NCBI GenBank assembly: GCA_913058495.1 | Contig: CAJXQC010000010.1 | Span: 1 to 64,000 of the forward strand | Direction: 5' to 3' | From: an uncultured Balneola sp. | GTDB lineage: Bacteria > Bacteroidota > Rhodothermia > Balneolales > Balneolaceae | DNA length: 64,000 nucleotides | Part shown: positions 18,642-22,297 of the stretch, in pieces | Layout: each line of letters starts with the position of its first letter | Numbering within the stretch: the first letter of the stretch is position 1 | The notes under the pieces: generated by a model | Databases searched by the model: none | Told to the model about the DNA's origin: nothing | Seen by the model: the letters and a program-made list of their open reading frames with translations, nothing else | Program-made: the position numbers and the translations under genes

Positions 18642-18660
18642 TTTAATCCGAGTTGATACT

Positions 18661-18691
18661 CGCTCCGATGGTCTCCGTCGGAGCGTTTTTT
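18661..18691 (+). terminator. Rho-independent terminator of katG
   Basis: An 8-bp GC-rich stem (CGCTCCGA/TCGGAGCG) with a 9-nt loop and a T-tract, 20 bp after the katG stop. A similar 20-bp phrase recurs at about 20680-20699, before the tRNA. Confidence 0.85.
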
Positions 18692-18772
18692 ATGGAAGAT
18701 TTCATTTCTAAAAAGAGATTACCCGATAGATAGAGCCAAGTTAGAACGTACTCGTTAACTCTGAACGAGAAT

Positions 18773-20365
18773 CTATTTTATTAAAAGCATTTTCTTTGTT
18801 TTAATGAAATTGTCAGCTTTAACTGTGTAAAAATATACACCACTTGAAAGTGCTGAAGCATCAAAATTCACTGTGTACTTTCCTGCACTTTTGCGTTGGT
18901 TAACTAAAGTAGCTACTCGCTGACCAAGAGTATTAGTTATCGTTAGCTGAACATTGGCTGCTTTCGGAAGTATATAGCTTATTTGAGTTGTTGGGTTGAA
19001 AGGGTTTGGGTAATTTTGAGATAATTGGATTGATGCCGGAAGATCAAGATGATCTTGTTCATTAGAAACTGGGGTTCTCTCAGATTGAGAAATAGTATAA
19101 ATTCCATATCCAACAGGATATTCATCACCTCGGTTAAAGATCATCGATAATATAATTTGTCCATGATTAAAAACAATTTTTTCAGCAAAGCCAAGAGTAA
19201 ATGGAATCAAATCAGAGCCTTTGGCTACTAAAACCAGCGAATCTATGCTACTGTTTGTAAAACTGGAACGTTCTTTCATCCTATAAGCATTAAAACTACT
19301 ATAGTTAGCATTATAGAAAGTAAGTACATCTCGATTTTTCTCAATTACACCTTCATTAGAAGTAGTTCCGGTATTAGTGATTTTAACAGCTTGGTAGCCG
19401 AAATTCAGATCCGATTCATTAACCAAGACGAGCGATGTTTTGTGAATCATTAAAACTTTAGCCTCCATTTCGCCTTCGTTGTTGCTTCTGGAAGCTCTGA
19501 AATAAATATAGTTATCTCCTTTTCCTATAATAGTAGTGTTTTTGTATTGAGGGTATTCGATTTGGGTGACAAGCTCGGGTTTTGCAGGATTTGCTACACT
19601 AAAAGAAGCGGCTTTTCCATCTTTGGTTACAATCACCGTGTCGCCATTTACAAAAGTAAGTTGATTGGGGTTAATGCTATTCAAAAAGGTAGCAGGATCA
19701 CCATCCTCGATGTCACCAGTTTCTATATTATAGCCAACTAGATTTACCCATTCTTCCCGATTTGCATCCCGGGCAGAACTGAAAGGAATGATATTAAGAC
19801 CTCTTGATATCCACTTCAACCCATTATTATTAAAAATGCCCGGTGGAGAAATACCTTCAGAAGTTTGATAGTCTTCGTATTCGACATCATTTAGTAATGA
19901 ATAAGAAGGATAAACTTTGTCGTTAGGCCCATCGCCGGGTTCCTCCAATTTATAGAGTCTTCCAAAGAACTTTGCGCTTCCTGATTCAGGATCCTCAGCT
20001 ATATAATAGGCAAACCAAAGATCGGTGCCTATCGCAAAAGATCGAAACGATATATATTCGTGATTAATGGAAGAAGGATTATCCTCCAGCTTCCAATCCT
20101 GAATCCCTTCCCACTCAGGTACTCCTTCTATCGGTATATCTTCATAATTATAAACAGCATAAGCCTGAACTGTTCCGTCAAAATCATCTGGTTGTTCAAA
20201 AGCATATAAATATGGGAAGTGAAATATTTGAACCGTTGGTACATCATTGGTATGCCCTTGTTGAGTCGTAAAGTGGCGAACCAAATCAAGCTGCAGAGAA
20301 TCTTGAGATAAACCAATTAAAGGTTGAAATACACCAATGCAAAGAATGGAAAGAAACTTAATCAT
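18773..20365 (-). CDS. Secreted protein with C-terminal sorting tail
   Basis: A 530-residue protein with a signal peptide (about 1-20, LSILCIGVFQPLIGLSQ). The body, of unknown function, may be a beta-propeller. The last ~80 residues form a type IX-like sorting domain: LSQNYPNPFNPTTQISYILP, then a beta-sandwich (LTITNTLGQRVATLV) and a basic end (KTKKMLLIK). This tail directs export and surface attachment in Bacteroidota and related groups. No enzymatic motif is seen in the body. It is a single-gene unit convergent with katG. Confidence 0.8.
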   Translation of the reverse strand: MIKFLSILCIGVFQPLIGLSQDSLQLDLVRHFTTQQGHTNDVPTVQIFHFPYLYAFEQPDDFDGTVQAYAVYNYEDIPIEGVPEWEGIQDWKLEDNPSSINHEYISFRSFAIGTDLWFAYYIAEDPESGSAKFFGRLYKLEEPGDGPNDKVYPSYSLLNDVEYEDYQTSEGISPPGIFNNNGLKWISRGLNIIPFSSARDANREEWVNLVGYNIETGDIEDGDPATFLNSINPNQLTFVNGDTVIVTKDGKAASFSVANPAKPELVTQIEYPQYKNTTIIGKGDNYIYFRASRSNNEGEMEAKVLMIHKTSLVLVNESDLNFGYQAVKITNTGTTSNEGVIEKNRDVLTFYNANYSSFNAYRMKERSSFTNSSIDSLVLVAKGSDLIPFTLGFAEKIVFNHGQIILSMIFNRGDEYPVGYGIYTISQSERTPVSNEQDHLDLPASIQLSQNYPNPFNPTTQISYILPKAANVQLTITNTLGQRVATLVNQRKSAGKYTVNFDASALSSGVYFYTVKADNFIKTKKMLLIK

Positions 20366-20728
20366 GCTAAAAAATAAAATTTAGTTTGATTGAACCTAAG
20401 CTTAAAAATGAAGCATAGAACTACCCAAATATGTAGTATATGCTGTTTTCAGTGTTGAATATTTACAGTGAACCTTTCAAATGAATCAAAAAGCTAACTG
20501 GAAGCAGGTTTCATGATTAAGGCTTTAAAAAAATTTATGAACACGGTAAAATTAAAGTTGAACTACAGTGAAAAAAATGACTTTAATTCATTCCCATAAA
20601 TTGAATGAGTTTAAATCCATTTTGCCAAAAGTGGGGTGATGGATTACTGATAAGGAAAAAATTAAATTCTCTCTCAGATGGTCTCCGTTGGAGCGAATCT
20701 TTTTTATTGCAATTAGTTCAAATTAAAG
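20366..20728. other. Intergenic stretch without a gene
   Basis: About 360 bp, AT-rich, between the divergent sorting-tail gene and tRNA-Gly. I see no convincing coding frame. It holds a partial copy, at about 20680-20699, of the katG terminator phrase. Promoters for the minus-strand gene presumably lie at the left end but none stands out. Confidence 0.5.
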
Positions 20729-20760
20729 TTGAATTAGAGAGCGAAGGAGCCTTATATTTG
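20729..20760 (+). promoter_or_regulatory. Promoter of tRNA-Gly
   Basis: TTGAAT at 20729-20734 and TATATT at 20753-20758 are separated by 18 bp. The -10 region also fits the Bacteroidota TAnnTTTG pattern (TATATTTG, 20753-20760). The tRNA begins 13 bp downstream, which fits a short leader. Confidence 0.6.
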
Positions 20761-20773
20761 CAGTCCTTCAAAA

Positions 20774-20846
20774 GCGAGAATAGCTCAGTTGGTAGAGCAC
20801 AACCTTGCCAAGGTTGGGGTCGCGAGTTCGAGTCTCGTTTCTCGCT
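20774..20846 (+). tRNA. tRNA-Gly (anticodon GCC)
   Basis: A complete cloverleaf: acceptor GCGAGAA/TTCTCGC, D arm GCTC...GAGC, anticodon stem CAACC/GGTTG with loop TTGCCAA (GCC at 20807-20809), and T arm GCGAG-TTCGAGT-CTCGT. The CCA end is not encoded. It is followed by a strong terminator. A defective second copy lies at 21166-21240, beyond a GIY-YIG gene. Confidence 0.97.
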
Positions 20847-20852
20847 CATTTA

Positions 20853-20885
20853 AAGCCTTTTAGAAAATTCTAAAAGGCTTTTTTT
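20853..20885 (+). terminator. Terminator after tRNA-Gly
   Basis: Stem AAGCCTTTTAGAA/TTCTAAAAGGCTT with a very short loop and a T-run. Nearly the same element follows the defective tRNA copy at 21244-21278, so tRNA and terminator were duplicated together. Confidence 0.9.
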
Positions 20886-20895
20886 ATTTTATAGA

Positions 20896-21168
20896 ATGAA
20901 GTCCCATCAAACCTATATCATTTTTAGCGAAACTAAAGACAAATATTATATTGGTTCAACTTCTGTTGGTACAGGCTTAAGAGTGGAAAGACATAATAAA
21001 GCCTGGACAGTATCGACTAGATCAGGAATTCCTTGGATATTGAAATATGTAAAAAGTTTTGGTTCAAAATCTGAAGCTATAAAATGGGAACGCTTTATTA
21101 AAAAACAAAAAAGCAGAAAATTTATTGAAAAACTCATCGAATCTGATGAGAATGAATTTATTCAGTAG
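20896..21168 (+). CDS. GIY-YIG nuclease family protein (URI-type), inserted at tRNA-Gly
   Basis: A 90-residue stand-alone GIY-YIG nuclease domain. The GIY motif appears as TYII (6-9) and the YIG motif as YYIGST (17-22). The catalytic arginine/histidine strand is LRVERHN (28-34), and the C-terminal SEAIKWERFIKKQKSRKFIEKL helix carries the metal-binding Glu. It starts 50 bp after tRNA-Gly. Its TAG stop (21166-21168) is the TAG of the D-arm region of the second, broken tRNA copy. The gene therefore lies exactly between two tRNA-terminator units, which looks like an insertion or duplication mediated at the tRNA gene. Such small GIY-YIG proteins are common in Bacteroidota genomes and their roles are poorly known. 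Confidence 0.85.
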   Translation: MKSHQTYIIFSETKDKYYIGSTSVGTGLRVERHNKAWTVSTRSGIPWILKYVKSFGSKSEAIKWERFIKKQKSRKFIEKLIESDENEFIQ

Positions 21169-21240
21169 CTCAGTTGGTAGAGCACAACCTTGCCAAGGTT
21201 GGGGACGTCCCGAAGTTTCGGGAAGTCTCGTTTCTCGCTC
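21166..21240 (+). pseudogene. Defective second tRNA-Gly copy
   Basis: From 21166 to 21204 it matches tRNA-Gly(GCC) exactly through the D and anticodon arms, and the final ~17 nt (GTCTCGTTTCTCGCTC) also match. The 5' acceptor strand is missing, replaced by the end of the GIY-YIG gene. The T-arm is replaced by a 7-bp palindrome, TCCCGAA-GT-TTCGGGA. It cannot fold a normal acceptor or T arm, so I call it a pseudogene. Confidence 0.85.
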
Positions 21241-21243
21241 ATT

Positions 21244-21278
21244 TAAAGCCTTTTAGAATTTTCTAAAAGGCTTTTTTT
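21244..21278 (+). terminator. Terminator after the tRNA-Gly pseudogene
   Basis: A near-identical copy of the terminator at 20853-20885 (AAGCCTTTTAGAA/TTCTAAAAGGCTT plus T-run). It would end the GIY-YIG transcript. Confidence 0.85.
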
Positions 21279-21441
21279 ATGTCTGATGTTTTAGCAAGCT
21301 AAAGATTGGGGGATTTGCCTGAAATATCGGTCTGACGGCTTGAGTCCGACGGATCGAAACCCGTTTATGGCACGAAGGATTTCCATCAACGGCATATCCA
21401 TCAGATGAAAATTTCTGATAGTAATCTGAAATCTATATTTC

Positions 21442-22260: not shown

Positions 22261-22297
22261 AAGCAGGTCATCCCGAATTTATTTCGGGATCTTACGT
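22261..22297. repeat. REP-like hairpin, left arm of cassette
   Basis: GTAAG...CTTAC brackets a TCCCGAA/TTCGGGA hairpin. The core 22268-22294 is a 27-bp inverted match, with 2 mismatches, to 22562-22588. The two copies enclose a broken GIY-YIG gene. Confidence 0.75.

Follow-up and report, generated by a model that had tools for sequence, protein, structure and literature searches.

Small GIY-YIG genes coupled to tRNA genes and to arm-swapped tRNA copies: a Balneola locus and its relatives across the phylum

GIY-YIG nuclease genes next to tRNA genes are known from phages. SegB of phage T6 cleaves tRNA genes and forms tandem units of tRNA-Tyr and segB, and the 3' end of segB shows microhomology to the 5' end of the tRNA (PMC13096335, Nat Commun 2026). 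SegB is a free-standing homing endonuclease from the tRNA region of phages T4 and T6, and the units that we describe here resemble the phage arrangement: a GIY-YIG gene lies beside tRNA genes, units occur in tandem, and the 3' end of the nuclease gene overlaps or shows microhomology to the 5' end of a tRNA. However, SegB is phage-borne and its cleavage of tRNA genes has been demonstrated, whereas our units sit in bacterial genomes, encode about 85 aa, have one protein clade per tRNA, and each carry an arm-swapped tRNA copy. SegB is much larger than 85 aa.

In fungal mitochondria, mORFs replace the 3' end of atp6, atp9, cox2 and nad3 and bring a replacement gene end together with the nuclease (PMC3630166). 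As in our units, the insertion is self-restoring: a nuclease ORF accompanies a copy of part of its host gene, whose function is maintained, and a partial copy is left over. In contrast to our units, the mORF hosts are protein-coding mitochondrial genes, the nucleases are mostly LAGLIDADG enzymes, and there is no hairpin-swapped copy. Islands that use tyrosine integrases to integrate into tRNA genes also duplicate part of the tRNA gene and keep its function, but our unit has no integrase, its insert is only about 0.4 kb and the tRNA copies are arm-swapped. At the protein level the closest systems are UPF0213/YhbQ-type and SLX1 nucleases, which likewise consist of a single small GIY-YIG domain. 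We know of no description of these nucleases as mobile or tRNA-linked. A survey of GIY-YIG proteins from 2006 is silent on such a tRNA link (PMC1564403), and a search of the open-access full-text literature brought up no account of chromosomal units in which a mini GIY-YIG gene is coupled to a tRNA and to its arm-swapped copy.

The locus lies in a stretch of 64,000 nucleotides from an uncultured Balneola sp. (contig CAJXQC010000010.1, positions 1 to 64,000), which we call the window. On the plus strand, a 90-aa GIY-YIG ORF lies between two tRNA-Gly sequences, each with a terminator behind it: an intact tRNA-Gly(GCC) upstream and a defective copy downstream. The intact tRNA (20774-20847; ARAGORN; Rfam 69.4 bits) is the sole tRNA that ARAGORN and Rfam find in the window. 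It is single-copy in the genome, where the next-best match is 75% identical. The first intrinsic terminator is a 30-nt palindrome with a T run (20852-20881), and the ORF (20896-21168) matches Pfam PF01541 with an E value of 2.9e-11. The defective copy (21166-21240), recognised by direct repeats, spans tRNA positions 8-74 and lacks acceptor nucleotides 1-7; its Rfam score of 25.5 bits falls below the tRNA gathering cut-off of 29 bits. Within the copy, a 16-nt hairpin, TCCCGAAGTTTCGGGA (21208-21223), substitutes for the 5' strand and loop of the T-arm. The second terminator (21245-21274) is the same palindrome with two substitutions.

The duplication consists of two direct repeats, one of 42 nt (98% identity, 20781-20822 and 21166-21207) and one of 57 nt (96%, 20831-20887 and 21224-21280). 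The lengths of these repeats and the recurrence of the layout in relatives exclude a chance arrangement. A preliminary description of the locus had placed the GIY-YIG gene between two copies of the tRNA and its terminator, which ARAGORN, Rfam, the direct repeats and the palindromes all confirm. It had also put the TAG stop codon of the ORF in the D-arm region of the second tRNA. The stop (21166-21168) forms the first three nucleotides of the copy, tRNA positions 8-10, at the boundary between acceptor stem and D-arm and close to the region named. The second copy is indeed defective; it is arm-swapped, however, and not a random relic. Rfam gives no group I intron match in the region, the ORF lies outside the tRNA and the tRNA is uninterrupted.

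Upstream of the intact tRNA, a putatively promoter-proximal region (aaattaaagttgaat ... gccttatatttg, 20720-20773, plus strand) contains a 40-nt match to the sequence upstream of the empty allele, the native tRNA-Gly of relatives; at 75% identity this is a partial likeness. With respect to nth, the unit of tRNA-Gly and GIY-YIG gene has an inverted orientation (18642-21322), and no remnant of the native tRNA was found in this interval. A gene for a T9SS-type protein (18773-20365) separates katG from the unit. The window also holds two copies (at 22271 and 22565) of a dispersed palindrome, TCCCGAA-N-TTCGGGA, which occurs 14 times per strand in the genome and 0 to 41 times per genome in the genus, against zero for a reversed-pattern control. 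It is a conceivable source of the swapped arms described below.

The protein belongs to the GIY-YIG superfamily, with a domain that carries the catalytic Tyr, Arg and Glu. In an alignment of 27 members Y7, Y18, G20, H33, E65 and K69 are invariant, N34 is nearly so, and R29 is conserved in at least 90%. The AlphaFold model has a pLDDT of 93.6, and by sequence and fold the best PDB matches are UPF0213 BH0048 (1zg2) and SLX1 (6seh), with I-TevI weaker. The protein is thus a GIY-YIG nuclease as the preliminary description had it, but a minimal UPF0213/SLX1-like domain without a separate DNA-binding domain in place of a typical multidomain homing endonuclease. A dN/dS of 0.22 between the window gene and its homologue in the Balneola genome G006 shows that the gene is under purifying selection. 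A phage or plasmid origin was considered and rejected, because the protein was not found in phage and plasmid collections (tblastn against phages returned nothing). In PHROGs it matched only at E 0.07 or worse and did not fall into the SegB-like T4 endonuclease family.

The nearest homologue, in G006, is 81% identical. Two other relatives, G001 and G003, are insert-free and show the order nth, tRNA-Gly, terminator, katG. Outside the genus, an occupied site in G049 and an empty site in G044 have both flanks in common. Such empty sites, in the genus and in other genera, bear out the earlier proposal of an insertion or duplication at a tRNA gene that preserves a functional copy. The contrary picture, two normal tRNA-Gly genes with an unrelated ORF, did not turn up in the relatives. 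Close relatives differ in the presence of the unit at one and the same locus (tRNA-Gly loci; rnpB), units are patchily distributed within genera, and truncated or frameshifted GIY-YIG copies occur.

A reading of the preliminary description in which the uninterrupted tRNA is cleaved and the occupied site is safe is not supported by the sequences. GIY-less relatives (G001, G003, G005 and G007) have exactly the same tRNA-Gly sequence as the intact gene in the window. GIY-plus and GIY-minus genomes have tRNA-Gly alleles in common, and occupied loci show no resistance-type change. An anticodon-stem allele (TCTCG/CGAGA) was considered as a resistant form in occupied genomes and rejected, since GIY-less genomes carry it too.

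G006 harbours a GIY-YIG unit with a foreign tRNA-Gly allele. Of the native tRNA, the first 26 nt are found on their own further upstream, and downstream of the unit the native sequence continues. In the acceptor stem of the intact tRNA-Gly (L075:8070-8143) there is an A4.C69 mismatch, as would be expected if one allele had supplied the 5' part and another the 3' part. This mismatch is suggestive of a native/foreign chimera, but the native first 26 nt stand apart upstream, beside an N gap. A foreign allele with this mismatch occurs in G006 only; elsewhere both copies match the same genome. In G007, about 6.7 kb of other genes follow tRNA-Gly, and then comes a degenerate tRNA-Gly copy beside katG. 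A block of 6.6-6.7 kb in this position is seen in G007 and G006 (L074:840-7584) and encodes a LytTR regulator, a histidine kinase and an ABC transporter with a peptidase domain.

To place the locus in a wider context, we searched 98 relatives and 84,980 species genomes for homologues of the window protein and examined their surroundings. A tRNA or tRNA copy adjoins the gene at 90 of 99 loci in Balneolales and other bacteria. The nine exceptions are two rnpB loci, two rfbB loci, one integron integrase, one duplicated terminator, two loci at contig edges and one unexplained case. By profile search, the family is present in 190 of 296 sampled genomes of the phylum, with up to 18 copies each. All 60 loci sampled across the phylum are tRNA-linked, a sample drawn from the upper part of the profile list that represents high-scoring matches and not weak ones. 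From the end of the intact upstream tRNA to the ORF the median distance is 55 nt; as a rough expectation, 0.3% of random genes would start within 250 nt behind a tRNA. Some Pro, Ser and Arg loci show the opposite arrangement, with partial copies upstream and the intact tRNA downstream. Passive duplication of a terminator and nothing more had been a candidate explanation for the window repeats; it is rejected on the phylum-wide pattern.

GIY-YIG clades on the tree are specifically associated with one gene each, as would be expected of free-standing homing endonuclease genes. On a tree of 114 proteins the identity of the neighbouring tRNA changes 16 times, compared to 68.9 times when identities are shuffled and a minimum of 11, a clustering that is partly owed to shared descent at one locus. 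Met and Asp form single clades with SH-aLRT support of at least 95%. The tree is built on 88 columns, which leaves its deep branches unsure. Fragments of L047 first labelled Tyr are relatives of Val and were relabelled before the tree was built. A tRNA as the cleavage target, as proposed in the preliminary description, is plausible and finds indirect support in this pairing of clades with isoacceptors.

A unit thus consists of an intact host tRNA with its terminator, a single-domain GIY-YIG ORF of about 85 aa and an arm-swapped second tRNA copy. The copy starts at a position that depends on the family. In the Gly family it often begins around position 8, and the TAG at 8-10 serves as the stop of the ORF; most Met copies start at positions 18-22. 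Units also form arrays of constant length: five units of 315 bp behind tRNA-Asp, five complete units of 450 bp behind tRNA-Leu, three of 323 bp and three of 358 bp. These arrays multiply the defective tRNA and not the functional one. In L095 (reverse strand), five consecutive 3' fragments of tRNA-Asn, mostly spaced by about 130 nt and with no GIY-YIG genes between them, occupy the stretch from about 600 to 40 nt before the ORF at 1518.

Arm swaps became visible in alignments of every downstream copy to the intact tRNA that belongs to it. A new perfect hairpin replaces a block of the tRNA in 73 of 93 copies, and 11.7 are expected when the non-matching letters are shuffled. Random decay is therefore rejected for most copies, while in the other 20 a new hairpin is not detectable. 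The hairpins are mostly of the form TCC...GGA; 61 of 81 within the tRNA span begin with TCC, if one extra 5' base is allowed. Their position is usually typical of the tRNA family: 37 in Met (10 of 11), 28 in Val (8 of 10), 50-51 in Asp (9 of 11) and 26-27 in Ala (4 of 5). Gly hairpins lie at 45-49 and 22-26, and those of Asn and Ser are scattered; the T-arm replacement of the window recurs in most Gly-family copies of other genera. The stems are perfect, GC-rich and clade-typical (TCCGCC in Met, mostly TCCCGA in Asp, Val and Gly, TGGCGCC in Pro(cgg)). In the Gly family the loop varies and the stem variants are compensatory across genera (CCCCGA/TCGGGG, TCCCGC/GCGGGA), a covariation judged by eye, as two rows were shifted in the MAFFT alignment of Gly hairpins. 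In 52 of 62 comparisons outside the swapped arm, the 3' part of the copy and its terminator are most similar to the tRNA of the genome in which they lie, and hence local duplication or gene conversion takes place.

Some hosts are not tRNA genes. In G002, G006 and G007 the gene for RNase P RNA has an enlarged P3 arm whose loop contains an unspliced GIY-YIG ORF (L102:1537-1797 and 1766-2144; L030 1489-1749, reverse strand; L190-L192). In G006 and G007 this arm reads TCCCCGC...GCGGGGGGA. P3 is short and empty in the remaining five species of the genus, and the P3 insertions come without intron or duplication. RNase P RNA seems to tolerate the swap, and hence a restored copy would not be needed. 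At two further loci (L121 1567-1845 and L128 1584-1865, both reverse strand; the junction forms CGGGATTTATCCCG) the GIY-YIG gene directly precedes rfbB, and the first ~36 nt of rfbB are duplicated in front of it. In L120 (1145-1399) a GIY-YIG gene sits at the 3' end of an apparent integron integrase gene, of which about 45 nt are duplicated, and is flanked by the inverted repeats CCCGTTAGAAAT and ATTTCTAACGGG. In the rnpB and integron-integrase hosts the ORF lies inside a hairpin of the swapped-arm type.

We propose, with moderate confidence, that the window locus belongs to a phylum-wide family of small tRNA-coupled GIY-YIG units that are homing-type, self-restoring and specific for structured RNA genes. 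In cells without the unit, the nuclease would nick or cut an arm of the cognate gene, be it for a tRNA or for another structured RNA. The break would be repaired by homologous recombination with a unit-bearing donor, for which the tRNA and its terminator provide the homology. One functional tRNA would be kept, and the copy downstream of the nuclease gene would have a swapped arm and presumably resist cutting; the swapped copy would lack the target site, while the intact tRNA is the same as in empty alleles. Unequal recombination between tRNA copies could then produce tandem arrays. This homing-type reading draws on the tRNA linkage, the few identity changes on the tree and the empty and occupied sites within genera. 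The P3 insertions, the constant-length arrays, the recurrent hairpins, and the conserved catalytic residues and fold also support it, as do the foreign allele beside the native first 26 nt in G006 and the SegB parallel. Against it stand the shared tRNA-Gly alleles, because an uninterrupted target then persists beside the nuclease gene, as well as the lack of a DNA-binding domain in a protein whose fold is nearer to SLX1/UPF0213 than to I-TevI. That copies match their own genome fits plain local duplication too, and the absence of the window protein from the phage and plasmid collections, where a vector might have shown up, likewise counts against the proposal.

The same observations can be read with the swapped hairpin, and not the tRNA, as the substrate, which we regard as possible but rather unlikely. 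An SLX1-like enzyme would cut the hairpin or a cruciform, and the break would drive recombination of neighbouring copies and local amplification; specificity for a tRNA would then come from homology and not from recognition by the protein. The fold agrees with this explanation, as SLX1 processes branched DNA, and so do the clade-typical stems with their compensatory variants and the ORFs inside such hairpins in rnpB and the integron integrase. Moreover, it avoids the problem of an intact tRNA unchanged from empty genomes. However, it leaves the first arrival of a unit at an empty tRNA gene unaccounted for, and it has to accommodate the copies without a detectable hairpin.

We consider it improbable that a GIY-YIG gene of host or unknown function simply hitch-hikes behind tRNA genes, with tRNA repeats that recombine and a second copy that decays. 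Such passive duplication would explain why the own tRNA and terminator are the best match of a copy, but not why many isoacceptors each have their own GIY-YIG clade, why arm swaps are non-random, why RNase P RNA and rfbB carry insertions or why presence is patchy within genera. Less probable again is a unit that serves the host, for example in phage defence or in control of tRNA-gene dosage by amplification, much as SegB serves T6 against Septu (PMC13096335). Purifying selection, the arrays and the SegB precedent would suit such a role; the patchy presence, the truncated or frameshifted copies and the amplification of defective instead of functional tRNAs do not.

A bolder reading is offered tentatively: the units may form an undescribed class of arm-replacing selfish elements. 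Their GIY-YIG nucleases of one domain would be specialised by clade, with a single structured-RNA gene for each (about ten tRNA identities and RNase P RNA). An arm of that gene would be exchanged for a hairpin which the nuclease itself recognises. Wherever this exchange would be lethal to the RNA, the elements would bring or retain a restored copy.

The hundreds of tRNA-coupled GIY-YIG units across the phylum point to selfish elements of an apparently undescribed kind, which sit on essential RNA genes and do not destroy them. If this is true, then most genomes of the phylum, judged by those sampled, carry sub-kilobase selfish units on essential tRNA genes, which annotation shows merely as small 'GIY-YIG proteins'. 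The units would be natural cut-and-rescue elements on essential genes and a source of tRNA-gene duplication and replacement. They would also provide a collection of compact nucleases that all differ in their target, and the pairing of clades with tRNAs makes this specificity directly testable.
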